From contig OY997592.1 in assembly GCA_963921825.1 (NCBI GenBank), positions 51,790,336 through 51,854,335 on the forward strand: DNA of 64,000 nt, written 5' to 3'. The notes beneath the pieces were generated by a model. That model saw only the letters and a program-made list of their open reading frames with translations, was not told the origin of the DNA and made no database searches. Every line of letters begins with the position of its first letter. The first letter of the stretch is position 1. Source of the stretch: Erodium maritimum. Lineage: Eukaryota; Streptophyta; Magnoliopsida; Geraniales; Geraniaceae. The translations under genes were made by a program, and so were the position numbers. Positions 9,272 to 64,000 of this stretch are shown one piece after another.

Positions 9272-9526
9272 TGTTATGAAAGTAAGAACGATACTTGTGG
9301 ATAGAAGAACAAATACTAGAGAGAACAAGAGAATATGGAGAGAGTAGAGAATCGAATATTATTGATGAATTCATCCTTTACAATGACCTCTATTTATAGG
9401 CTCATAATCATAGAGTCATAACCTTGATAAACTACATAAATGATAGAGTCCAAAATACGAAAGTCTTCTGACTCCCACTCCTATCTAGAATATTCCATGT
9501 AGTCATCCAATCAAAAATTCATAACA
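9272..9526 (-). repeat. Copia 3' LTR
   Basis: 255 bp, TG..CA ends, about four differences from the partner at 15060-15314. It contains a TATAAATAG box on the minus strand (9390-9398), like the other LTR. Confidence 0.95.
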
Positions 9527-9750: not shown

Positions 9751-12700
9751 TCATAAATCACGGAGTTTTCTCATGCCGATCTTGTAGACCAACTTTTCAA
9801 AGGAAGCTGTAGGAAGCGCCTTAGTGAACAAATCTGCAAGATTGTCACAGGAACGAATTTGACATACATCGATATCTCCCTTTTTCTGAAGTTCATGAGT
9901 AGAGTAGAACTTAGGAGAAATGTGTTTCGTTCTATCTCCTTTGATGTAGCCTCCTTTGATCTGAGCTATACAAGATGTGTTATCTTCGTATAGGACAGTT
10001 GGACTTCCTTTATTTATTGAAAGATCGCATGATTCTCGGATATGATGGATCAAGGACCTTAGCCATATACATTCACGACTTGCTTCATGAAGAGCTATCA
10101 ATTCAGCGTGATTTGAAGAAGTGGTTGTAAGTGTCTGTTTTGTTGAGCGCCAAGATATAGCGGTGTCACCATATGTAAATACATACCCAGTTTGTGACCG
10201 CGCTTTGTGGGGATCAGATAAATATCCGGCGTCAGCATATCCAATCAATTCAGACTTCGAGTCTTTTGAGTAAAATAACCCCATATCTAATGTTCCTCGA
10301 AGATATCTAAAAATTTGTTTAACACCAGTCCAGTGTCTTCGAGTCGGAGAGGAACTAAATCTTGCTAGCAAATTAACAGAGAATGCTATATCAGGACGGG
10401 TGCAATTAGCAAGATACATTAGTGCCCCAATGACACTAAGATATGGTACTTCTGGACCAAGGAGTTCTTCTCCTTCTTCTTGGGGGCGAAATGGATCCTT
10501 TTTCACATCAAGTGATCGAACAACCATGGGGGAACTCAAAGGATGTGAATTATCCATATTGAATCTTTTAAGAATCTTTTCAATGTATGATGACTGGTGA
10601 ACAAAAATCCCCTTCGACAAATGTTCAATCTGAAGGCCGAGACAAAATTTTGTTTTCCCCAAGTCTTTCATTTCGAATTCACTTTTCAAGTATTCCATCG
10701 TCTCTACAAGTTCATCATGTGTTCCAATGATGTTTAGATCATCAACATAGACCGCGATGATGGAAAATCCGGTTTTCGTCCGTTTAATAAAAACACATGG
10801 ACATATTTTATTGTTGATGTATCCTTCTTTCAAAAGGTATTCACTGAGACGATTATACCACATTCGACCAGATTGTTTTAGCCCATACAAAGATCTTTGG
10901 AGCTTTATTGAGTACATTTCTTGAGGTTTTGAGATGAATGCTTCTGGCATTTTTAGTCCTTCAGGGACTTTCATGTAAATGTCATTATCAAGCGACCCAT
11001 ATAAATATGCGGTCACGACATCCATCAAGTTCATTTGGAGTCCTTCTAAAATTGACATGCTAAGTAAAAATCTGAAAGTGATTGCATCCATGACCGGTGA
11101 ATACGTCTCTTCATAATCAATTCCTGGTCGTTGTGAAAATCCTTGTGCGACGAGTCGAGCTTTGTATCTTACGACCTCGTTTTTCTCATTTCTTTTGCGC
11201 ACAAATACCCATTTATATCCTACGGGTTTGACACCTTCAGGTGTCTGGACTACGGGTCCGAATACTTGGCGTTTATTGAGTGAATTCAATTCTGTCTCAA
11301 TGGCATTTTTCCATTTTGGCCAATCATTTCTTCGTCGGCATTCACTGACCGATCTTGGTTCATGATCCTCATTTTCTTTTGAAATATCTAATGCAACTGT
11401 ATGTGCAAATACATCATCCACTATAATTTCTTTTCTATTCCATCTTTCACCTGAAGTGACATAGTTAATCGAGATCTCTTCATTGTCAACATTTTCAGGT
11501 GTTTTATCATCTTCTGAAGACGTCTCTTCATTTCTCACATTTATTTCTTTAGGAATTGTGACATCGTTTGATGTACCAACTTGCTGAACTTGTTCCTTTC
11601 TTTTTCTTGGGTTTTTGTCTTTGGATCCAATAGGTCTACCACGCTTCTGGCGTGCTTTAGATTCATTTGCTAGCATATTTCCCATTTCTTCATCAGGAAG
11701 AGTAATTTTACAAGGAACATTAGCAACTGGTATATGTGATTTTGTCACAGTCTTAACATCCGTAAATGCGTCAGGCAATGTGTTTGCTACCTTTTGTAAG
11801 TGGATAATCTTCTGAACTTCTAGTTCACATTGATTCGTACGAGGATCAAAATGAGACAATGTCAATGCATTCCATGAAATTTCTTGTCTTTCTTTTTTAG
11901 ACGTTCTTCTATCTCCCCCTAATGCAGGGAAAATTGTCTCATCAAACTGACAGTCGGTAAATCGTGTCGTGAACATATCACCTGTCATGGGTTCCAAATA
12001 TTTAATGATTGATGGAGACTCGAACCCAATATAAATTCCCAATCTTCTTTGGGGTCCCATTTTGCTACGTTGAGGAGGAGATATGGGGACATAAACTGCA
12101 CACCCAAACACTCTCAAATGAGAGATATTTGGTTCTTGGCCAGTGACAAGCTGCATCGGGGGAAATTTATGATATGCAGTCGGCCTTACTCGTATTAACG
12201 ATGCAGCATGAAATATTGTATGTCCCCAAGCAGAATTCGGTAACTTTGTTTTCATAAGTAAGAGCCTAGCGATCAATTTTAGTCTCTTAATAAATGATTC
12301 TGCTAACCCGTTTTGGGTATGAGTATGGGCCACAGGGTTTTCAATCATGATTCCAATTGACATACAATAATCGTTAAATGATTGAGATGTAAATTCTGCG
12401 GCATTATCCAGACGGATATTCTTTATCGCATGGTCTGGAAACTGTGCTCTTAATCGAATTATTTGAGCAAGGAGCCTTGCAAACGCAACATTACGAGTGG
12501 ACAATAAGAAACATGTGACCAACGTGTCGATGCATCAATAAGTACCATAAAATACTGAAATGGCCCGCTTTTCGGGGTAATAGGTCCACATATATCTCCT
12601 TGAATTCTTTCTAAAAATGTTGGACATTCAGTCGCAACTTTCATCGGGGATGGTCTTGTAATCAATTTTCCTTGAAAACAAGCAACACATGGGTATTCTT

Positions 12701-13274
12701 TTGGCAAAAGGACATTTTTACTCTTCAAGGTATGTCCATGTGAATTTTCTATGATTCTTCGCATCATTATGGAACCCGGATGGCCTAAACGATCATGCCA
12801 TATCATAAAATTTGATGGGTCCATTGGTTTTTGGTTAATCACCATATTGGATTCAATTGGATTAATGAAAGTATAGTATAATCCAGATTTATATGAAGGG
12901 AGTTTTTCCATAATTTCTTTTCTCCCCGAGACTATGGACGTGATGTGTAAATATTCAACGTCATTTTCATTAGTTGTCTCAATGTGATAACCATTTCGGC
13001 GAATATCCTTGAAACTTAACAAGTTTCTTTTTGATCTAGTTGAGAACATTGCATCATTGATAATAAAATGTGTACCATTTGGTAACATTACATTGGCTCT
13101 TCCGGAGCCTTCAATAAGATCTGATGGCCCAGATATTGTGTTCACTTTAGCTTTAGCTAACACGAGATGTGAAAAATATTTTCTATCTCTCAAAATTGTA
13201 TGTGTTGTCGCACTATCCACCAAGCAAAGTGATTCCTCGTTGCTTTTAATATAATTAGATAGACTTTTGTCCAT
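9751..13274 (-). pseudogene. Copia pol (protease, integrase, RT, RNase H) with a frameshift
   Basis: Two overlapping minus-strand frames, 13274-12459 and 12522-9751, together form one pol. The first carries the retropepsin-like LVDSATTHTIL site, the pre-integrase zinc region (WHDRLGHP, then CVAC) and the first integrase Asp (GDICGP). The second continues with the integrase D and E (RLDNAAEF, NGLAESF), the reverse transcriptase (KARLVAQGFSQ and the YVDD box) and RNase H (YADAGYLSD, SSNHAE). The 923-codon second frame has no stop. A small indel in the overlap around 12500-12520 breaks integrase between its first two acidic residues. A further stop/frame change separates gag from pol at 13275-13432, although copia elements normally use one gag-pol frame. 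Confidence 0.92.
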
Positions 13275-13432
13275 AGTTCTTCATAAGACAAATAGATAAA
13301 ATTAGAAATAAGACACTCCAAATATTTTATTGATGAAAGATACCAAATTACGAAACACACTTGAACATATAAAAACTTAAACATAAACTCAAACACTTAA
13401 ACAATTCTAAGAAACATAAAATCATCATTTTC

Positions 13433-14476
13433 TCAAGCCATCTTTCCATCACTGATTAATTTGTCGAATTCTCCATTGGTATCTTCAAAGAAATCTCCAA
13501 CCTCCAAATGGGTAAAATCCATAGGATCCTTTTGTTCAGTAAAGTTTGTCTCGACACCTTTAAGCGAGGCTTGATAAAGCTCAACAAGGTGTTTTGGAGT
13601 ACGAAAAGTACGACTCCAATGGCCTTTTCCTCCACATCTATGACAAGTACTATCAGTCTTCTTGAATGGCATGTTTTCTTTTGGTTTCCACTTCAGGTGG
13701 TTGTGGGATTTATTCTTGAGATTCGACCGATGTTGATTATGATGATCGCGGTCACGTCCATAAATTTCTCCACGACCACGTCCATAACTTTGTCCACGAC
13801 CACGTCCGCGACCACGACCACGACCACGTCCGCGGAAATGTTGTTGATTAGGCTCAAACTCATTACTAGTTACAACATTCGCTTCAGGGAATGGTGTTGA
13901 TCCAGTTGGGCGAGAGTTGTGATTTTTCATCAAGAGCTCATTATTTTGTTCAGCAACAAGTAGACATGAAATTAGCTCAGAATATTTTGTAAAACCTTTT
14001 TCACGATATTGCTGCTGCAGGAGCATATTCGAGGCATGAAATGTGGAAAAAGTCTTTTCCAACATATCTTTATCAGTGATATTTTCTCCGCACAATTTCA
14101 TTTGAGAAGTAATTCTAAACATTGCGGAATTATAATCACATACGCTTTTAAAGTCTTGCAAACGTAAGTGTAGCCAATCAAAACGAGCTTTAGGAAGTAT
14201 CACCGTTTTTTGGTGGTCGTACCTTTCCTTTAAATCTTTCCAAAGGATTGCAGGATCCTTAACCGTCAAGTATTCAGTTTTCAATCCCTCGTGGATATGA
14301 TGACGGAGGAATATCATGGCCTTTGCTTTATTTTGTTTAGATGATGTATTTTCCTCTTTTATGGTATCTCCAAGGTTCATGGCATTGAGGTGGATTTCAG
14401 CATCATGAATCCAAGCCAAATAATTTTTTCCAGAAATGTCCAAGGCGTTGAACTCTAGTTTTGTAAGGTTCGACAT
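13433..14476 (-). CDS. Copia gag (UBN2-type) with altered zinc knuckle
   Basis: I choose the ATG at 14476 (MSNLTKLEF) because the typical copia gag N-terminus starts there; the frame extends upstream to 14575 without similarity. The middle is the UBN2-type capsid region. Next comes an RG-rich, RNA-binding stretch with about seven tandem RG pairs, encoded by near-perfect CCACGTC/CCACGAC repeats. The zinc knuckle reads CHRCGGKGHWSRTF, so the fourth ligand of the C-x2-C-x4-H-x4-C pattern is Phe instead of Cys. That should weaken zinc binding and RNA packaging. Confidence 0.88.
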   Translation of the reverse strand: MSNLTKLEFNALDISGKNYLAWIHDAEIHLNAMNLGDTIKEENTSSKQNKAKAMIFLRHHIHEGLKTEYLTVKDPAILWKDLKERYDHQKTVILPKARFDWLHLRLQDFKSVCDYNSAMFRITSQMKLCGENITDKDMLEKTFSTFHASNMLLQQQYREKGFTKYSELISCLLVAEQNNELLMKNHNSRPTGSTPFPEANVVTSNEFEPNQQHFRGRGRGRGRGRGRGQSYGRGRGEIYGRDRDHHNQHRSNLKNKSHNHLKWKPKENMPFKKTDSTCHRCGGKGHWSRTFRTPKHLVELYQASLKGVETNFTEQKDPMDFTHLEVGDFFEDTNGEFDKLISDGKMA

Positions 14477-15059
14477 TGTAAAGCTATAAATAAATATAAA
14501 CTGTATTAGTTTCATACTATAAACATATGCATCTTGGAACTTCAGGTTCAAATGCTCGGTTTCAACAAACCTCAAATTCCATTATCAACAATAAAATACA
14601 AGTATATAATAAACATCGAATTTCTGATGTGAAAGATCCAATGTTTCATTGGCGATCACAGAGCATACTTATCGAAGTTGTAAACGAATTTGTATTCTCG
14701 AAAATGTTACTTCAGGAACATAATATATAGAAAAAATATAGAGAAGAGAATTATCGATTATAAATAGTATGATGAAGCTTGAAAATAGTTTCTTTGATTT
14801 TATCCTGCAGGGATCATCAATTTAGAACTTCAGGTCTTTATGTGAGCTTCGGGTCACAATTTTAACACAACTTGAACGACGGGTTCAAGAGATTCGTTTC
14901 TTGACGATTATAAAACTTTATGTTCAAAGTATCATGATTTGTGTAAACTTCAGGTTACACAAATCTAATATACATAAACACGAAATAAACACAAATAAAC
15001 TTGAAAGAAATAAAGTAGGCTTAAATACTTACAAAAGTTGAGCGTTCGTGCTGATAACG

Positions 15060-15314
15060 TGTTATGAAAGTAAGAACGATACTTGTGAATAGAAGAACAA
15101 ATACTAGAGAGAACAAGAGAATATGGAGAGAGTAGAGAATCGAATATTATTGATGAATTCATCCTTTACAATGACCTCTATTTATAGGCTCATAATCATA
15201 GAGTCATAACCTTGATAAACTACATAAATGATAGAGTCCAAAATACGAAAGTCTTATAACTCCCACTCCTATCTAGAATATTCCATGTAGTCATCCAATC
15301 AAATATTCATAACA
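15060..15314 (-). repeat. Copia 5' LTR with TATA box
   Basis: 255 bp with TG..CA ends. The minus-strand TATAAATAG at 15178-15186 is the likely promoter TATA box for element transcription. Target duplication GAATA follows at 15315-15319. Confidence 0.95.
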
Positions 15315-20587: not shown

Positions 20588-23500
20588 ATCATAATTTTCT
20601 ATTTCAATAAATAACAGCGCCCTATCCCTTTTCTCTCTCTTTCGCACAACGCCGTCTCCTTGCAGAAACCTCACTTTGTCGCCGCTGCCGGCAGCTTCCA
20701 GGGGCTGCCACCTTGGTAGTCGCTGCCCCGTGTCCTTCCCCTTCCTTCCCTTCCACCCCATCACCTCCTCGCTGCCTTAACTGTCTACACCTCTCATGAA
20801 GCCCGCCGTCAAACCGGATCCGGATACACAGTGGCTTCTTCTCTGGCGCTGCCATGGGATGCGAGGTTTGCTCTCCTCCTTGCTGCTGTTGCGTGGGAGT
20901 GAAACCAGCCACTGTCGCTGGTTGTGGAGGTGCAAAACCTACCGTTGGTCGTCGCCGTTAGCCCGTTGCCGATCCCGCTGGCATGCTGACGGCGACCCCC
21001 TCAATTCAACCCGTCGGCTTCTCCTTCGCGAGGTCAGGGCGTCGGTCCTCTGCCGTGTATTGTGCCGGCGAAGGTGGGATTCTTAACCCAAACCGGTTGT
21101 CGTCTTCGGTCCGTTGCTGTGTGCTTCGCCGGTAGGTGGAGGGGTGTCTCGTACCCCAGCCGGAGCCGACCTCCTCGAGCTCCAAAGTTTGTTGCTGTTG
21201 TGGTTCCGTCCCGAGGGTGGTGGTCTTTGTCGACGTGTGCTGACTGTGTACATGGCAGCCACCGTTCATTCTCACCATGTGTGGGTTTGAGTTTCGTTGG
21301 TCTTGGTGTTGGCCACCAATGGATCGGTGAAGTCTTTCTCTATGGGTATGGTTGTTCGAGGTTGGTTCTTTTCCAGTTCTGTTGGACTCCTGTCATTGTT
21401 GTCTTTGTAGGTTTGTTGGTGTTGGCGTGGGTCAGGACGATTTACAGTTGCTAGGGTTCGTGTCGGGGTATGGTGTTGGCCACCGACGATACTCGTCCCC
21501 TACAATGTTGAAGGTTGGCCGAAGGAGCTGGACACCGTAGTACATTCATACCATCTGAGTGGTGTTGGCCATGTTAGTCTTAGTGCCCGTAGTTCAATCC
21601 TAAATGTCCAAATGTATATATCATCGTTAGCAATAAAATTAAAGCGGCTTTATATTACTTATGTGTTGGAGTAATATATCGATGTGTGCTCTGATCTATG
21701 CCCACCATGCGAATAGAACCATAGATCGAGATAGATCACACTCGATGGGTCCCTAGTCAACAAAGCTTCACTAGAAGCGACTAGTATGAAAGATGGCTCT
21801 TTATGGCTTACGTTCTGTTAGTCATTGGAATGGGATTCTGGAGTCTGATCATAGATATCATGTGGGACATGATATTGGACGACCCGCCCTGAATATGTGC
21901 CATAGATTAAGTCATGAACATATTCAGTGTCGTAGCTTGACATGTATCCTTAGACCAAAGAGTCTTTGTGATCGCTATGTAGTCAACAACTGAGTTTGAC
22001 CTGAGCCTAACGTTGTCCGTAACAGGGCTTCCATAACGGCCAGGATTGGCTTGGGGACGGGCTACATGAGTGACACGAAAGACGGCTAAGGGATTTATCC
22101 CTCGTACTAAGGTATGGGAAGGATATCGGTTCTCGGCCGCTTGATCGAGAGTGACTGGAAGAATAGCATGGCCATGCACATGATACTGGGTATCATATCT
22201 TCAGTCATCTCACATATCAAGGAACGGTGATTGAGAATAATAAGGATGACGGCTCTATGCCTTATCTCAATCAGGATATCGGAGATAAAAGGATAATGAC
22301 AGGGACGACGGAAAGGTTAGAATCGACAGGGTCGATTCGTTATGCAGTGTCAGGCAATACTAAAGTCTCGTTAGTTGCCACTTAAATAGGATCAAGTAAA
22401 ATGGGATTTTACGTTGATCTATTGACATGCATAAACCTAAGGGTCACACCGGAGGATGAAACTCATTGACACATTTATGGAGAATGGCCAAAAGGGAGTT
22501 GTCTCGGGACATGACCAAAACTGGGTTTTGGGTCATGTGCTCGTACGTGAATAGGACTTTACGGATCGAGACAAGGCTTGGAGTCTTGGGATTGATCGCG
22601 TCGGATAATGTTGGACATTTCCGGTATGGAAGGCTTGGAGGCGATGAGCGAATCACGGGACCTCGTTAGAAATGGCCACGGGCCATGTTCTAAGAGGCCC
22701 ATGAAAGTCCCATGCAACCAAGGCCCATGGAACTAATTAATCAAGTCTTGATTAATTAGTACTAAGTAAGCAAGACAAGGATTAAGGTGTTGGTGATTCA
22801 CCACCTAACCCAATCTTGTCTTGCCATACTTTGTCCTATTTACACCTTACTTGACACCATACTTGTCCCATGCCTTTAGTTGGACAAGTATGGGTTTTGT
22901 TATGTTTAAGTCATCTTTTTTCAACATAACAAACACAAGACAAGAATAGGAAACACATTTTCTCTCCCTCTTCCATGGCCATTTCGGGTTTGGCTAGTTT
23001 CCTCCTCCATTTTTGTGTTCTTGAGTCCTCAAAGAGAAGAACTACGTGGCTTTGATTCCCATGTGGATACGTAGGCGTCTTGGAGACTCAAGCCAATCAT
23101 TCGTTAACCGGTGTTCTTGTTTTGGTAAGAGATAGTGCTGAATTTTTCTCTTGTGAATCCATTCTTTGTTAGTTGTTTCATGGTTTTAATCGTCTCTTGG
23201 TTTTTATTGATTTTCCGCTGCGAGTTGGTTCATCTCCAACCCTACCTCGAGACCCAACAGGCCATTGATGTATTGGATGTAGTTCAGGGTGGAGCCATGT
23301 TGGCACAGTGTTCGCTGGTCTGATGGTTATTGGCGGGTTGGCATTGACGATTCCTTGTGGCATTGGTTGCCACTCGCCTGGGGCGGATGCTGGGGTGTTT
23401 TTTCGTTGGTGTGTTTAGGCGGTTTGGCCTCTTAGGATGTCTGGTTAGGCCCTTTGTGTAGGTGTTGGGGTTTGTGTTTTCGTGTTTTCTTTTTGTGTTT

Positions 23501-28749: not shown

Positions 28750-31700
28750 TCTAACCTAGAGGTTTTGCGAACGACAATCATGGCTTTGTTTTCTTCACCA
28801 ACAGACCATCATCGTCTTCATGGGAGCGATGGGGGAGATTAGAGGTGAACCTGCGGCATCCGACCGATCAAGATGTTAGTCTTAGTGCCCATAGTTCAAT
28901 CCTAAATGTCCAAATGTATATATCATCGTTAGCAATAAAATCAAAACGGCTTTATATTACTTATGTGTTGGAGTAATATATCGATGTGTGCTCTGATCTA
29001 TGCCCACCATGCGAATAGAACCATAGATCGAGATAGATCACACTCGATGGGTCCCTAGTCAACAAAGCTTCACTAGAAGCGACTAGTATGAAAGATGGCT
29101 CTTTATGGCTTACGTTCTGTTAGTCATTGGAATGGGATTCTGGAGTCTGATCATAGATATCATGTGGGACATGATATTGGACGACCCGCCCTGAATATGT
29201 GCCATAGATTAAGTCATGAACATATTCAGTGTCGTAGCTTGACATGTATCCTTAGACCAAAGAGTCTTTGTGATCGCTATGTAGTCAACAACTGAGTTTG
29301 ACCTGAGCCTAACGTTGTCCGTAACAGGGCTTCCATAACGGCCAGGATTGGCTTGGGGACGGGCTACATGAGTGACACGAAAGACGGCTAAGGGATTTAT
29401 CCCTCGTACTAAGGTATGGGAAGGATATCGGTTCTCGGCCGCTTGATCGAGAGTGACTGGAAGAATAGCATGGCCATGCACATGATACTGGGTATCATAT
29501 CTTCAGTCATCTCACATATCAAGGAACGGTGATTGAGAATAATAAGGATGACGGCTCTATGCCTTATCTCAATCAGGATATCGGAGATAAAAGGATAATG
29601 ACAGGGACGACGGAAAGGTTAGAATCGACAGGGTCGATTCGTTATGCAGTGTCAGGCAATACTAAAGTCTCGTTAGTTGCCACTTAAATAGGATCAAGTA
29701 AAATGGGATTTTACGTTGATCTATTGACATGCATAAACCTAAGGGTCACACCGGAGGATGAAACTCATTGACACATTTATGGAGAATGGCCAAAAGGGAG
29801 TTGTCTCGGGACATGACCAAAACTGGGTTTTGGGTCATGTGCTCGTACGTGAATAGGACTTTACGGATCGAGACAAGGCTTGGAGTCTTGGGATTGATCG
29901 CGTCGGATAATGTTGGACATTTCCGGTATGGAAGGCTTGGAGGCGATGAGCGAATCACGGGACCTCGTTAGAAATGGCCACGGGCCATGTTCTAAGAGGC
30001 CCATGAAAGTCCCATGCAACCAAGGCCCATGGAACTAATTAATCAAGTCTTGATTAATTAGTACTAAGTAAGCAAGACAAGGATTAAGGTGTTGGTGATT
30101 CACCACCTAACCCAATCTTGTCTTGCCATACTTTGTCCTATTTACACCTTACTTGACACCATACTTGTCCCATGCCTTTAGTTGGACAAGTATGGGTTTT
30201 GTTATGTTTAAGTCATCTTTTTTCAACATAACAAACACAAGACAAGAATAGGAAACACATTTTCTCTCCCTCTTCCATGGCCATTTCGGGTTTGGCTAGT
30301 TTCCTCCTCCATTTTTGTGTTCTTGAGTCCTCAAAGAGAAGAACTACGTGGCTTTGATTCCCATGTGGATACGTAGGCGTCTTGGAGACTCAAGCCAATC
30401 ATTCGTTAACCGGTGTTCTTGTTTTGGTAAGAGATAGTGCTGAATTTTTCTCTTGTGAATCCATTCTTTGTTAGTTGTTTCATGGTTTTAATCGTCTCTT
30501 GGTTTTCCTTGATTTTCCGCTGCGAGTTGGTTCATCTCCAACCCTACCTCGAGACCCAACACAAGACCCATCAACCCATATGCTCGTGAATTCACTCGTC
30601 CCGTCTCGACGACTCTGATCTTGACTGTGGTCGAGGTGGAGAGCGACTGGCTCATGCTTGTTGCACGTAGGGAGGATGAAGGTCGATCATCGAGGGTACG
30701 AGGATTGAGTGGTCAGAAAACTCAAGGGTATCTCTTGGAATATCGGAGGAGTTTGTTTCGACGAACCCCAGCGGCGGGGCTGCGGTTTCGTGCGGACCAG
30801 AGGGAGCAACTGGGATCCCGGCAACCGAGATTGGTCTTAAAGGAGACGGTGGCTCTTTCACCGGATAATAGGGAGAAAAGGGAGGCGGGGACCTGGAAGT
30901 GGCGGCGGGGAAAGGAGGCCGTTAGGGTTTCACAGGAGGAGCCGGTTGAGTTGGGCCAGAGCATGCGAACCGAGGCCTTTTGGGTGCGACAAGGAGGGCA
31001 TGGACAAATGGGCCGAGCTATAAGGACGGGTTGTGGAATGGACCAGAGCTGGGTCTAGCGGTCCGAGGAAGAACTGGACCGGTCAATTGCTCTTGGCCCC
31101 GGGTCCGGACGAATCAATGCTCCTGGGCTTGGCCGGGTCGGATTAGATGGGTGGACCAACTGGGGTCCACATCCGGTTCGGGTCCACTAGGTCCCGTGGT
31201 TCGGGCCCAATTGGGCATGCAGACGGGTCGGGTCAGGTTCCGAACTTTGGGGTGGGGAGGCCCAAGGCTTCGCTGAACCAGGAGGCCGGGTTATCCACAA
31301 TCGAATCAGTGTCGGGTGGGACTCATCCACACGATCAGGAGGGATTTCATTTGCAGCGGCGGGGGGCCCTAAACACCCTCACCTCGCGGAATGAGTCCAA
31401 AGTGGTCCAGAGGGGGTCAGTCAGCTATATCGCCCCTCTGGATGTAGGATGGTAGTGGTACCATCAAGATCCTCCACAAGGTTCCCCTACCAGTTCATGG
31501 GTCAACAATCCCGCGCTCTGGAGCTCCATCTCTATCAAGCAGGAGAGGACGGCGCACGCTGACAACCTAGGGGATTCTTAGTCCACGAGTATGAGAAGTT
31601 ACAACATGCCTGCTTGGTCATTGAAAGCCTGTTTGGAGTCGCTGCATTGGTGATCTTAGAACGTTGTCGCGACACTACCTTCCGAACATCAAAGGATTCC

Positions 31701-56929: not shown

Positions 56930-58573
56930 TGTAATAACCACTCCTGCTCAACGCCAGTCAAACCTGCGAAAAACAGGAAAATTTAAAAAAAATTAAGACA
57001 AACACTTAACTTAACCTAGATTGACCCCGAGGGTCATACCGGACTTAAGTTGACCCCGATATCGACCAAAGTGAGTTCCGGGAGACTCAGGGCAACTTTC
57101 TGATCAATTTGGGAAATGTTGACTTTTCGTTGGAAAAGTCAACCGAGCGACGTTTTGGTCCATTCGAGGACCGTTTTGGATCCAAAAAGCTTAGCCGTCG
57201 TCACAGCGGTCTTAGTTGAGCCGTTTCCTTGTGACCTGTCAAGTTTCGTAATTTCTTGGGAAAAGTGCCTGTTCGGGACCCGAAAAAGGTGTGGGACCCA
57301 CCTTGCCACTTGTCAACCAAGTGGTGGTGTTAGGTGTATGGGGAAAAACAAGAAGACAAGGAGAGAAGGGGGGTTCGGCCATAAGGAGAAAATGGGGGAA
57401 AAATTGGAAAAGAGTTGTGTTTTAGAAAGAGAAAGAAGAGAGAGTTTGGAGAAGGATAAGAAGAGAGAAAAGAGAAGGAGTTGGGCTAGGGTTTGACATC
57501 TAACCCTTGGATCGTCTCAAGGCAAGGAGAAATCGACTTCCCCTCGTCCTCCTCTACGGTTAGTACTAAACCGATCGTCGATTTGTTAAATTTCAAAAGC
57601 TAGGGTTTTGTTAAAATGAATGGTTTAGGGTTGTATTGAGGTTGGGGAAGTGTTGGAGACGTTTTAGAGGTGTTTGGAGGTGAGATTGCACGTTTTCCGG
57701 TGACCGGAAGCTCGGGAGGAGCTCCAGCCACCGTGGGTGGTGGCCGGGCCGCAAAGTGAACCCTAGGGCCCACGGCCTAGCTTTTCCGGGTGGGGCCCAC
57801 GTGCTCGGGTGATCGGGTTTTGTGTTCGGGTGGTTTAGAACGTTCCCCGGACCGTTTATCCTTAATCGAATCGAAATTTGGAATTAAAATGCGAAAGTTG
57901 TAATTATCGGGTTTAGAAACTTTAAACGTTAATTAATTGACTCGGAAGTCGGAATTCGATTCCGTCAAGTGCATTGGGACCCTTGAATTATTCTAAGACC
58001 GTAGAAACGAAAACGGGAACTTTTGGAGCCCCGGAAGGGCATTTACAAAACCCGGGCAGATTCGCCATGTCGGGCGAATCAGGCCTTTCCGAGTCCTTTA
58101 TCGACAATGTCGAGTAATTGGGAAGTTTGGGAGTGATCGACATTGCCGGGGTTACGTTTGAGCGTTAAGTTTATCGAATTTCAGTTTATTCCTGCGAGTT
58201 TAAAGTACTTTAAAAATTGTGTTCTTTTAGATCGTGTTGCGGACCGAGGCAAAGGGAAGCTAGGCGAGTGACTGGGATCACGCCGGGGCTTAGTTGAGCA
58301 CTTTTGGAGAATTACTCGAGGTAGGGAAAAGTAGCCGGATCTCGGCCCTGACTGGGGAAAGTTAACAGTAGAATTGCATGTGACACCGGGGTGTCGTGGG
58401 TTAAGTAGTTTTATTAAATATTAGAAAGGCATGATACGGGAACGTAGCGATTTATTGGAAAAGCTTGTGACACTTAGTAGTGTCGTAGGAACAGAGAACT
58501 TAGCGATATTAGAATTACTGGAGGCATATGACCATGCCCGGAGGTTGACTGTTTACTTTATGTCTTGGGTGGT
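56930..58573 (+). mobile_element. Truncated large LTR of family TGTAAGAACC
   Basis: Starts TGTAATAACCACTCCTGC and contains the family blocks AAGCTTAGCCGTCGTCAC and TCGAGGTAGGGAAAAGTA. It stops abruptly at 58573 where the palindrome begins. The missing 3' part is most likely displaced beyond the right edge by the nested element. Confidence 0.65.
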
Positions 58574-59418
58574 TGATGCGGGTGCATTTTAACACATAAA
58601 AGAGCCACTTTATATCGAGTTATATAGGCTTTTGGTCCCGGTTTTCTATCATATATTTAGATTTAGTTTAAATAATTGTTTTTCTCGATGTGTTCGGTGT
58701 TTGATGCAAAACCGACACATTTTGGGTGTTTCGTGCAAGTGGATCGATAAGAGGGTCGATTTTGTTCGCTTCGAAATATATTCATGACTGGTCTTGTTTT
58801 GTAGGTCTTGAAAAGAGGAATTTTTGGGCGCAAGAACGAGATCGATCAGAGCTCAAACGAAGCCGGAGCGAGCAAAATAGCGGAAAAGGAGCAAAAATGG
58901 AGCAGCCCATTAGAGTCCGCCACGTGGCGCCGCCAGCTCAGCCGCCATTCTTCCTGCGCGCGACACGTGGCGCTGGTCAGCCGCCTCTCCTTTGTGCAGG
59001 AGGAGAGGCGGCTGACCAGCGCCACGTGTCGCGCGCAGGAAGAATGGCGGCAGAGCTGGCGGCGCCACGTGGTGGACTCTGATGGGCTGCTCCATTTTTG
59101 CTCCTTTTCCGCTATTTTGCTCGCTCCGGCTTCGTTTGAGCTCTGATCGATCTCGTTCTTGCGCCAAAAAATTCCTCTTTTCAAGACCTACAAAACAAGA
59201 CCAGTCATGAATATATTTCGAAGCGAACAAAATCGACCCTCTTATCGATCCACTTGCACGAAACACCCAAAATGTGTCGGTTTTGCATCAAACACTGAAC
59301 ACATCGAGAAAAACAATTATTTAAACTAAATCTAAATATATGATAGAAAACCGGGACCAAAAGCCTATATAACTCGATATAAAGTGGCTCTTTTATGTGT
59401 TAAAATGTACCCGCATCA
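58574..59418. repeat. 845-bp near-perfect palindrome at the 3' LTR position
   Basis: The left arm starts TGATGCGGGTGCATTTTAAC at 58574; the right arm is its inverse, ending at 59418. Paired landmarks (four CACGTG boxes at 58921, 58964, 59023 and 59066) are exactly symmetric about 58996, so there is no net indel between the arms. Translating both arms shows only a few substitutions. The right arm is in the correct place and orientation for the start of a minus-strand 3' LTR because the polypurine-like AAGTGTGGGGTGT (59419-59431) abuts it. Confidence 0.93.
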
Positions 59419-59431
59419 ACACCCCACACTT
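59419..59431 (-). other. Polypurine-like tract before the 3' LTR
   Basis: Minus strand AAGTGTGGGGTGT directly precedes the LTR start TGATG. Similar tracts lie at 60748-60760 and 60845-60856. Confidence 0.6.
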
Positions 59432-61201
59432 AGACTTTTCTCGTCCCGAGAAAACTAAACATAAATAAATATAAACTAGCTAAGATAAATGCCAAGATAA
59501 ACCCCGCGATACTATCTCCGTAGGCGGAGCTTGGCGACTCCGGGTTATTGAAAGCAGTAAATATGCATATGCTGACTCGACTAGACAAAAAAAATCCCGT
59601 GCAAATACACAAGCAAATTAAAGACCAAAAATTTAAGACTCAAAGAAGGTATGTTCTTACACTTGGATTTTATCGGCAATTTGACCTAGAGCATGCATAA
59701 GGAATAAGATCTCTCATCATTCTTTTCTACTTTTCACCAACCAATTTTTACATGTTGTAGATTAAGAGTGTATGTGTAGTGGTTTACAAGATGAAGTGCA
59801 ATAACTAGAAAGATTTCAAGCCTAATTATTGTCATTTAGCCCTTTGCTCTCTCGATTATACATAACATAGTACTAATCAAGAGCATAACGTAATCTCATT
59901 CACAAATCTTATGAGTGGGCGTTGTCATGCAATTACGCTGCCTTGGGACTATGCGAATGGTAAACCTATCTAGTTCCTTTACGAGTCAAGTGGTAGATCA
60001 AAGTTTTGCTTGGTTTTTTCGATTACGTGTAGAAAATTTGGATCATTAAGATAGGCTGGGGGTTTACCTTTTATTACGCTATGATTAACTCAGGACATGA
60101 GGGTCTCACTCTGCATAGCGTTCTGCCGCAGCCCCTCAAGCCTTTGTTAATACACATATTTTATTGGATCCCCTTTCCCCGGGACCTATACATAATTCCC
60201 CGTGCATAGTGTGTGTGATTTTGAAAAATTGGTACCACAAATGCACAATGAGACTAACCACTTGAACTCGACTAGACTTCTAATCTACCGAAACGCATAG
60301 TTCGATCCCAAGACAACAAGCATGTGAGCTCAACCTCCTCTACATGCAACGAGTGAAATAAGACTAGTATCCCTTAACTAGGGCCACTATATGCAGAAAT
60401 CAAGATAGAATCAGGCCGGTGACAATAAAAAGAATTGAAACCTAACCACACCTAACATTTGGCGTGACCGCCTTTTCGTGTTAAGGCATCTAGCATCACA
60501 AAATCATCATGAATCCATTAAGCAATATAGCACAAACACAAAATACAGCTCATTAAAACTACCAACAGTAAATCATCCAAACATTCCTCAACAAATCCTC
60601 AATGATGAAAATCTACTCCTGACTTGCTCATGTTGGCCTAAATTGCACATCCAAGGTTTACACACAAAATAAAGACCCATAAAAAAAAATTACACCAAAA
60701 ATGCATGAAGTGCAGCATAGAATGCAAACATATAAATGCAAAGCATCCCACCCCACACTTTAAACCTAAGCATTGTCCCCAATGCGACTCTAAACACATA
60801 TTTACACATAATTACAGATGCACCTTATAGATGATAACAATAAACACCCCACACTCAGAATCAGGCAACATACAAGTCAAGAAATGCTATATGCATGGTC
60901 TATCAGCACAACAATTCGGGTGCTCAGCACCCCCAAATAGCATATATGAGATATAATAGCGGTAAACAATATAAAACAAGAAGGAAAGAGATACTGCCCC
61001 TCGAAGAACCGCTACTCGACTTGTAAGCTGACGTGGGAGTCCTAGTGTGCATGGATGGATGGAAAGATCATCGCCTGTGAGAACTTCTAAGAAGCTCGGC
61101 GCCATGGCATGTGACTAAACCGCTCCTACTCTCCATCCATTGTTGGGGTGCCTCCCAACTAGCGTATTTGTTTAACGTCGTTAGCTCGACAGCTAGGAGG
61201 C
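59432..61201 (-). other. Non-coding interior of the gypsy element
   Basis: No domain is visible. The segment 61140-61190 on the minus strand reads GTCGAGCTAACGACGTTAAA, then AAATACGC and TGGGAGGCACCCCAAC, a block I associate with this group of plant elements. Two internal GTGTGGGGTG tracts are also present. Confidence 0.5.
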
Positions 61202-62310
61202 TCAATCAGGAGGCCTCCCAAGAACCTCATACTTCCATTGCGTCCTCCTCTTCAAATATGGATGTGTATGCGGGAGAAGGAACACAATGTAGCAAATGAA
61301 CCTCTTCCTTGAGTTCTGCACAAATTCCAAACTCAATGCCAATCTCATCAAGCTTGCTTTAACAGAATAATCATGATCAAAATCATCTTTGCATGGCTTG
61401 GCAGGGATTTGAATCCCATGAATCGGAAAATGCACATACCCAAAAGGGTTAGTAGCACCTACCGAAATAGAATAATAACTCACAAACGGGGAATGAGAAA
61501 TAGCACATGAATCAAAAACTTTATGCTCAACATTAAATTTATAAATCAACGGTATAGGTTGAACATAAAGAATTGATTTGCTAGAATCTAAAAATGAATC
61601 TCCCACACTAAATGGAATTTCGACATCATGCTCGATGTCTAGCAAAATAAAATCAATAAGAGATTCAAACATACCCCTCTCTTGAGAGCATCTTCTATAG
61701 TACCCCTTGGATATCTAATCGATCTATCAGCCAACTCTATGGATACTATGGAAAGATTTGGCTCATCAAGAGTTTGTGAACTATTTTCTACAACTGTGCA
61801 TTCATTATTTACATCTATAGAATTCAGTGCATCAAAACTACATGGAGAATCAATTGTCATAATAGAAGAGGGATAAGAACTTGGTACCTCACATTCCGCA
61901 CTTACCTCTAAACTCATGGGTGAATCACAAGTTTCTTCTTCTATTGTGTCACATAAGTGCTCGGAATGATCATCCTCAATGTGGACTGCTTGATCATCAA
62001 AGTTTGTCTCATTAATCAATTGCACGAGATCATTCATTTGACCTTGAAGCTCTTGGACCATGAACACTTGTTCCTCTTGTTTCCTCATCATCTCGCCCAT
62101 CTTGTCCATCTCATCATGTCGCTTTTCCTCCTCAAATCGGTTTGGAAAAGCTAGACAAAAATCCTCTTCACTAGGCAATTCAAAAGTGGAAGCATCCCCC
62201 CAATTTTGACTATAGTCCCTTGAATGCAAAAGAACCTCGCAATTGTAAAAATAATGATCATTAGCACCACATATATCACAATTCCCATTATTAGGAAACC
62301 AATTCTCCAT
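61202..62310 (-). pseudogene. gag zinc knuckle plus partial retropepsin of the gypsy element
   Basis: Two overlapping frames, 62310-61639 and 61672-61202. The first starts MENWFPNNGN and has a zinc knuckle CDICGANDHYFYNC (C-x2-C-x4-H-x4-C) at residues 10-23. An acidic, Glu/Gln-rich probable coiled coil follows (about 65-110), then LADRSIRYPRGTIEDAL. The second continues, one frame over, with DFILLDIEHDVEIPFSVGDSFL. Together these are the C-terminal half of the Athila/Tat retropepsin. The catalytic Asp block that should precede it is absent, and a frameshift breaks the rest, so no active protease can be made. Capsid sequence is also missing. Confidence 0.75.
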
Positions 62311-62404
62311 AAAAGATACGATGCAAAGAATCTACTAAAAGAAAAATATGTACAAGAATGAAACAGACGTAGCACAAACTATATAGCAAGGGTCACCTAA
62401 TTTC

Positions 62405-62422
62405 TCCCCGGCAACGGCGCCA
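62405..62422 (-). other. Primer-binding site for tRNA-Asp
   Basis: Minus strand TGGCGCCGTTGCCGGGGA, complementary to the 3' end of plant tRNA-Asp, seven bases after the LTR end at 62430. Confidence 0.88.
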
Positions 62423-62429
62423 TAAAACT

Positions 62430-64000
62430 TGACGCCCTGCGGGTTTTAATCGCAAACTTGAGCACGGCAAGTGCACCGGCCGTCAAGTAGTAATCGGATT
62501 TGAAGTCCGGAATATCGAGCCCAAAGGAGCAATAAACAAACACTTACTATTTAAAGCTTGTAGCTAAGCTATTTCTATAAAAAGTTGTTTTTATGCTTCT
62601 AAAATAAACTAACAAGTAATGCAAATCAAGTAGAGCACTCGTAGCACGAAACCGATAATTCTTAACTTCTTGAATCAAATGATGAAATTTCTAGGATATC
62701 GGGTTCATAGAGTTCATTCCATAAAGTCAAAAATACTCGATTGTTGTGATGAAGACTTGATTTAGAGGCAACGAGTCATCTCAACTCTAGTCCTAACTTC
62801 TTTCGAACGATTCGGACCCTAATGGAATCTAACCACCGAGTTCTTTCGAATCACGATGTAGGAAGACCCAAAGCGTTTAGCTCTATGACAACTTCTAACT
62901 TTCGACCAAACAAGCCTATAGCTATTGCAATTGTATTAACCCCGCTAGTTCTAGCTAGAGTTTAAATCCAATTTACGATCGACTTTAGACTAATTAGAAT
63001 TCTCCTTTTTCAAGCGTTAAATTCTAATTCGAAACAATTATCAACCCTACCCGGGAGATAAAGCGTTAAGCACAAATCGATCATAAACACTAAAACAATT
63101 CAACAATCACAACAATTTAAAGCATTCAAAACATGGAAATCCCTACTCTAATCACCCAAAACCCTAGAAATTGGGGGTTTAGTTGTTCATGATAATCAAT
63201 GACATAGAGATGAACCAACAAGTAAATGAATTCATAATAAGATTTAGAGAGAAGGTTTAGATACAATCACCACAATAAATTGACAAAATGGTGGCTCTTC
63301 CCCTTCTTCCAAACCCTAGCCTTGATCCTCTTGTGTTGGCAACAAATCCAAGAGTAGAAACACAAAGAAGCTCTCCTAAAGATGAATTTCCTCCAAGAAC
63401 AATGGCACCCTTGGCTCAAATCCCTCTCCAATCAATGAAGCTCCAACTTGTGTTCCCCAAAAATCTCTCCAATAAATTCAGAAAATAAACAACTCTCTAT
63501 AAAAATCTCCTTCAAAATTAACTATCAAGAGTGTGTCTATCTTTGTTTGTATGTAGAAAGAAAAAAAATAAATAAATATCAAAGCTTAAGAGGCTCTCCC
63601 CTTCTTCGGTTCGGCTCCCTCGCCTCTGTATTTGCTCTCTGTCAAAAAAAATCAAAACTTCCTCTCTCCTGAGTTGCGGCTGTGCAGTTGAATGGTGTAG
63701 GGTTTGAATGGGACACGCGTCAAAAAAGGAATGGATGGCTGGCTGGGGACAGGTGTCGGCACAGGAGAGGGGTAGAGGTGCTGGACCGGACAGGTGGCGG
63801 ACGCTGGGAGAGAGGCGGCTGGGAGGACAGGTGTCGCGCAGAGGGGAAGTCGGCTGGCGGCTGGAGAGGGACACGTGGCGAGACGCAGAGGCGCCACGCG
63901 CGCTGGCGGCTGAAGGCTGCGCAGCCACGTGTCGCACAGATGGGCTTGGCGGCTGTGCTTGACACGCCACGTGTCGCGTCCTGGCACAATCTCCAATTTT
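62430..64000 (-). repeat. 5' LTR of the gypsy element, incomplete at the window edge
   Basis: Ends GGGCGTCA on the minus strand next to the primer site. At least 1571 bp long. Its last 550 bp are homologous to the solo LTR at 55766-56835. The part near 63870-64000 carries CACGTG boxes and CAGCCGCC repeats like positions 340-415 of the palindrome arm, so roughly 340 bp more should lie outside the window. Confidence 0.8.

Follow-up and report, generated by a model that had tools for sequence, protein, structure and literature searches.

Inverted U3 ends at the 3' terminus of an Erodium maritimum LTR retrotransposon and at further loci of its family

An 845-bp palindrome in a short LTR element

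The window analyzed here, a 64,000-nucleotide stretch of the 763-Mb E. maritimum genome (40 contigs), corresponds to C5:51790336-51854335. It contains the palindrome, which is carried by a short minus-strand element of the Ty3/gypsy type; the 5' LTR of this element extends past the window to 64318. The following features were located.

58569 to 58573, no strand: left copy, GTGGT, of the target-site duplication (host copies have GTGGC; the right copy, GTGGC, is at 64319-64323, beyond the window)
58574 to 58991, plus strand: left (inverted) U3 arm, the outer integrated end, beginning with TGATG and differing from the right arm by 6 mismatches
58992 to 59000, no strand: 9-nt turn spacer, the exact junction having a single genomic occurrence
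59001 to 59418, minus strand: right U3 arm, the first 418 bp of a truncated 3' LTR, defined by comparison of the arms
59419 to 59431, minus strand: polypurine tract (PPT) AAGTGTGGGGTGT, directly before the 3' U3 and adjoining the right arm
60749 to 60760, minus strand: second PPT-like copy AAGTGTGGGGTG, then GGATGC, the site in the family at which an insertion on C3 starts
61642 to 62331, minus strand: 230-codon open frame in the short internal region
62406 to 62422, minus strand: primer-binding site TGGCGCCGTTGCCGGGG, directly after the 5' LTR
62423 to 64000, and on to 64318 beyond the window, minus strand: 5' LTR, ending with TGATG at the GTGGC duplication

Counted from its TGATG ends, the palindrome spans 845 bp (58574-59418). 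It is real and far beyond chance: a scan of the window for inverted repeats returned one pair at this place (58566-58991 and 59001-59426, 98% identity). The original prediction had described arms of about 422 bp with few substitutions and no net indel; the palindrome has 6 mismatches and no gaps as described, and its arms are 418 bp long. The right arm was also correctly placed against the PPT on the minus strand, AAGTGTGGGGTGT (59431-59419) lying directly before U3. A GC-rich self-complementary stretch had been proposed as the turn point. This proposal did not survive, since relatives carry GGTCAGCCGCCTCTCCTCCTGC without its inverse, and self-complementarity at the turn is thus a product of the inversion and not its cause. 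The central 92 nt have a folding energy of -64.3 kcal/mol (-20.9 ± 2.5 for 200 shuffles), which is a property of any palindrome. On the minus strand, CCTGC in the spacer is the continuation of the LTR of the relatives, and ACAA is probably filler. A genome-wide search with GCCTCTCCTCCTGCACAAAGG for a parental LTR containing the spacer did not find one, the one exact match being the window copy and a further match with 2 mismatches lying on C9. Elsewhere in the window, about 526 bp (929-1454) match their own reverse complement at 83% and resemble a MITE or fold-back element.

The 5' LTR is about 1896 bp long (62423-64318), of which 1578 bp lie in the window; it was originally given as at least 1571 bp. 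It is followed by the primer-binding site, which we take to be of the tRNA-Asp type, and by an internal region of 3 kb. At the other end, the PPT does not lead into a complete 3' LTR matching the 5' LTR; 418 bp of U3 are found, and then their inverse. The 230-codon frame had no match in Pfam at E 0.001. In longer relatives of the family, matches to Retrotrans_gag, Asp_protease_2, RVT_1, RT_RNaseH, Integrase_H2C2, and rve follow one another in this order (five pieces of a longer relative were scanned separately; four matched in order and the fifth had no match). The family thus has the order of plant Ty3/gypsy elements (gag, protease, reverse transcriptase, RNase H, integrase), with reverse transcriptase before integrase, whereas the window copy lacks gag-pol and is unlike such elements in its 3-kb internal region and its frame without a Pfam match. 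The lineage may be Athila-like. The start of the family LTR occurs at 685 genomic sites with at most 2 mismatches. The window also holds two pairs of direct repeats. The first (21571-23259 and 28873-30561; 1689 bp, 99.7% alike, 7.3 kb apart) is probably the LTR pair of a young element; the second (9272-9526 and 15060-15314; 255 bp, 98.4% alike) encloses long minus-strand open frames (9751-14581).

Target-site duplication and templates of the arms

The original prediction called for a partner of GTGGT (58569-58573) at the true 5' end of the element. It is present as GTGGC directly after the 5' LTR, GTGGT standing directly before the TGATG of the left arm. The simplest reading is a 5-bp duplication of GTGGC, with one later C-to-T change, around palindrome, body, and 5' LTR together. 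The host sequence is itself a dispersed repeat. Among its 11 best other copies (of 40 scored), ten read GTGGC-CATGAGAGCC uninterrupted at the insertion point, and in the eleventh (L059) the test used did not recognize the motif. Because the outer end and the 5' LTR have this duplication in common and the host copies are uninterrupted, the palindrome predates integration; it belonged to the molecule that integrated as one piece. Of the one-step event first proposed, a self-primed fold-back followed by integration, the insertion of an already palindromic molecule in a single step is thus retained. The alternative offered with it, separate insertion of a second LTR fragment head to head, is made unlikely by the shared duplication and the uninterrupted host site.

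The same evidence bears on two other explanations. Recombination, deletion, or breakage and repair involving a second element or LTR in the opposite orientation might have formed the palindrome after integration, in a family in which nested and tandem copies are common and one close head-to-head pair exists. We consider this improbable in view of the single duplication and the intact host copies. Duplications also accompany the cases at C1:16822928, on C4, and on C3 described below, and a deletion would need equal end positions in both LTRs. A fold-back or MITE-like DNA transposon, with long terminal inverted repeats and a short duplication, would look alike in isolation. That one should lie beside a PPT by chance is scarcely credible, since the arms represent U3 from a family whose LTR termini number in the hundreds and lie exactly at the PPT, the duplication encloses body and 5' LTR and not the palindrome alone, and the junction is single-copy. 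Regularly spaced LTR starts, which are perhaps tandem copies sharing LTRs, were observed at C1:149632240-149646807 (4849 bp, four times) and C6:17024172-17042091 (about 8.94 kb, three times).

The arms were compared with each other, with the 5' LTR, and with 22 of the 28 matched loci L003-L030; L008 and L009 (the C3 case itself) and L017, L019, L021, and L029 (start motif unmatched) were left out. In the first 380 positions the two arms differ at 6 sites, and at five of these one of the two bases is present in 0 or 1 of the 22 relatives. This is the pattern expected of later private mutations in arms that were once identical, and the two arms come from one source. That source is not the LTR of the element itself, contrary to the initial description of the arms as inverted copies of its first part: the two arms, with 6 differences over 418 positions, resemble each other far more than they resemble the 5' LTR, from which the arm departs at 45 of 339 aligned positions. 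For 22 of these 45, both variants occur in at least two of the 22 relatives, which points to a standing difference between templates. The 5' LTR of the element was thus ruled out as source of the arm. Relatives differ from one another by a median of 11.6%. Unlike U3s are not usual in the family, since the LTR pairs of two other elements differ by only 0.27% each.

No single parent for the arm was found: the nearest sequences (C4:2455187 and C5:47895876; 97-98%) match just from query base 25 on, and the last 24 arm bases before the turn resemble other family members. Module order in the GC-rich central part of U3 (about 340-600 nt from the start) varies among relatives L003-L030, as if U3 recombination were frequent. 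In ordinary reverse transcription, both U3s of an element are copies of one U3. Since those of the window copy are unlike, its 5' LTR was completed from another template, and one cDNA thus drew on two templates. Unlike U3s would also result if the 5' LTR had undergone gene conversion after insertion.

Inverted U3 joins at further loci

A search of the genome for other copies with palindromic ends, as suggested in the original prediction, yielded five further loci at which a U3 start stands tail-to-tail with an inverted U3 start. LTR termini were examined from four variant lists of the LTR start and the first 100 exact places, drawn from the 685 sites; similarity comparisons rest on the best 40 candidates per DNA query. 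Counting the window copy as case 1, the inverted arm runs as far as TGATG, the start set by the PPT, in all six cases, and the arms are unequal in four. Among the five further loci, perfect 5-bp duplications flank two; a third shows 4 of 5 bases and has a relative with an empty site, a fourth has a compatible flank, and at the fifth none was found.

Case 2 (C3:19574922-19577180) comprises a PPT followed by TGATG, two arms each about 1085 bp long (98.6%; 14 mismatches and 3 gap columns over 1082 aligned), and an exact TGATG end. Its centre of about 90 nt contains a 22-nt match to the U5 end and a small hairpin. The insertion starts at the internal PPT-like copy, which in the family is AAGTGTGGGGTG followed by GGATGC. 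At the filled site the sequence is CCCTTTGGTGTG / GGATGC ... CATCA / TGTGTTGTGATGG; the empty site, CTTTGGTGTGTTGTGATGG, is uninterrupted in two of nine host relatives (L042 and L048), with similar text in four more. The duplication, TGTG, comprises 4 of the expected 5 bases. Case 3 (C1:16822928-16824859) is a 1932-bp LTR-only insert, in which the LTR breaks off within U5, 48 nt short of its end, and gives way to 39 nt of inverted U3, with GTCAC on either side; it could be a later solo-LTR deletion derivative.

In case 4 (C1:55654021-55658607), the PPT is followed by a complete LTR with TGG of the primer-binding site and then by about 604 bp of inverted U3, with 99.8% identity between the arms over 409 bp. 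A 5' LTR flanked by CTGCT was expected but not found, nor was it present in 501 bp upstream (L076). The inverted arm contains a later insertion of about 2.1 kb (L068:1594-3709), TG...CA, with CTGTT on either side. In case 5 (C4:58362131-58365586), a complete LTR and 35 nt in all beyond it, including the primer-binding site, run into an inverted LTR with TG of the primer-binding site at its end; ACCAA lies on either side, and the arms differ at 24 of 378 positions. Case 6 (C8:23184963-23185408) has a PPT, 81 nt of U3, and 365 nt of inverted U3, the common part being identical. Upstream, at a distance of 4.9 kb, there is a 5' LTR start whose flank fits a pattern that AAGGA is among those to satisfy, a fit expected by coincidence at 16 in 1024.

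Two other loci stand outside this count. A seventh candidate (L029; C4:76477282-76480857), in which an LTR cut in U5 is joined to an inverted LTR end (L029:3200-3398), was rejected because the expected duplication was not found at its far end with at most 1 mismatch. At C1:104905537 (plus) and 104909645 (minus), a PPT-U3 faces an inverted U3 4.1 kb away (L066 and L067; 86.9% over 344 bp); fusion of two variants and two insertions are both compatible with this arrangement. The pattern GCGTCAAGTTTTATGGD gave 23 matches, 13 with T, which most simply reflect a C-to-T change in the primer-binding site, and 10 with A or G. One of the 13 (C4:2457064) is a 3' LTR followed by other DNA, and one of the 10 is case 4.

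Among 261 listed termini, LTR starts within 5 kb of each other formed five tail-to-tail pairs (cases 2-6), one head-to-head pair, and 18 same-strand pairs. The count was based on the four variant lists (261 of 262 places), the last of which allows a base outside the exact 21-mer; the window case lies outside it, owing to an altered motif base in the right arm. Random insertion predicts as many tail-to-tail as head-to-head pairs, so that five against one is weak evidence by itself. All five tail-to-tail pairs proved, when read, to be continuous inverted LTR joins. The sole head-to-head pair within 5 kb among the matches listed is C5:5403504 (minus) and 5404265 (plus), 761 bp apart.

Palindromes are a known long-read artefact, and a fold-back chimera arising in reads or assembly would resemble the window copy. 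Such an origin is very improbable: beyond the palindrome lies a different host flank with a target-site duplication, the 6 arm differences look private, and the same class occurs at independent loci with different junctions.

Origin and meaning of molecules with two U3 ends

We propose, with a probability of roughly 0.55, that the palindromic end of the window copy arose by fold-back of plus-strand DNA, which was copied to its PPT-defined end, and that the resulting molecule with two U3 ends integrated. Plus-strand DNA would start at the PPT, its 5' end being TGATG, and fail in its normal transfer to the primer-binding site. Its 3' end would then be elongated, with plus-sense U3 DNA of the same origin as template, until the 5' end set by the PPT was reached. 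The product, U3(1..n)-U3'(n..1) followed by PPT and body, would be double-stranded with a U3 end at both termini, and in the window copy the 5' LTR would have been completed from a different template. With its 3' LTR already replaced by the palindrome, the element would integrate once as linear DNA, integrase inserting both U3 ends and producing a 5-bp duplication. In this scheme the turn would be made by reverse transcriptase, in the particle, from plus-strand DNA, and the TGATG at which the inverted arm stops would correspond to the 5' end of the plus-strand template.

In cases 4 and 5, the U5-side junctions hold 2-3 nt of the primer-binding site, past AAGTTTTA(T), where normal copies end. 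Aberrant plus-strand transfer is favoured by these junctions, as U5 ends with TGG or TG are expected of unprocessed plus-strand strong-stop DNA on a tRNA-bound template. The window copy, with a failure of its own plus strand and another template for its 5' LTR, fits such a transfer. Several observations count against fold-back. In case 6 the arm next to the PPT has only 81 nt against 365 nt in the inverted arm, an arrangement that would call for priming between two strands and not a simple hairpin. Outside case 1, the 0-1 nt of microhomology or the filler of about 90 nt (C3) would arise as readily from end joining. The divergence of the case 5 arms, the lack of a confirmed duplication in case 4, the possible solo-LTR origin of case 3, and the failure of L029 are counted on the same side.

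Joining of two family cDNAs or fragments tail-to-tail by host end joining before integration, the products surviving because both outer U3 ends were intact, is a serious rival, which we judge to be less likely. Besides the filler, it would account for the unequal arms in four of the six cases, the 0-1 nt of microhomology at cases 3-6 (read by eye), and the C3 centre with its U5-end piece and small hairpin. On the other hand, the arms of the window copy stop within about 10 nt of each other, an outcome expected about once in a hundred for random breaks in a 1.9-kb LTR, and the C3 case is nearly symmetrical as well. In most cases the arms come from one template, although a median of 11.6% separates relatives. 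That every inverted end is a U3 end also speaks against end joining, but selection by integrase could be the reason. Extending the plus-strand reading from the window copy to the family, we tentatively suggest, at somewhat less than even odds, that in this family failures of plus-strand transfer have repeatedly ended up as integrated DNA with two U3 ends, by fold-back or by tail-to-tail mutual priming.

Complex LTR retrotransposons formed by template switching have been described in Triticeae, rice, and maize (Sabot and Schulman, 2007; PMC1950507). Like the window copy, they are products of aberrant reverse transcription inserted once with a 5-bp duplication, and in both the duplication argues against recombination after insertion. 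The window copy likewise is a fused element with a single flanking duplication. In contrast, it does not have their alike direct outer LTRs with a third, internal LTR: its ends are inverted, differ at the 45 of 339 positions given above, and enclose no third LTR. The elements of these authors are direct head-to-tail fusions with three LTRs and normal U3 and U5 ends, whereas the family studied here has inverted fusions, located within or between LTRs, with U3 at either outer end. For HIV-1, intermolecular second (plus) strand transfer has been proposed (Cappy et al., 2017; PMC5651808); according to the abstract, two RNA templates can supply both LTRs, as the unlike U3s of the window copy imply, and the abstract, unlike the window copy, involves no fold-back or palindrome. 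Palindromic two-LTR circle junctions, as outlined for retroviruses, also join inverted LTR ends before integration; they connect U5 and U3 ends of a circle, whereas the window holds U3 and inverted U3, joined at internal LTR positions in a linear integrated copy. In open-access titles and the openings of abstracts, we found no plant LTR ends described as palindromic or as inverted U3, and we do not claim that they are absent from print. Template-switching insertions with a single duplication have thus been known since 2007 as direct fusions, and the inverted form with two U3 ends is a variant that we did not find described.

If the proposed origin is correct, dead-end products of reverse transcription, usually inferred in the test tube, would be preserved in the genome with exact ends, and the positions at which plus strands stop and turn could be read from assemblies. 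The integrase of the family would be able to use two U3 ends at once. Some apparent solo LTRs, inverted LTR pairs, or inverted repeats would be primary insertions, and dating of such copies by LTR divergence would fail because their two U3s come from different templates. Inverted LTRs would give hairpin transcripts, hypothetically a trigger of silencing. The genome would then be a fossil record of reverse-transcription intermediates, LTR-only inserts included.
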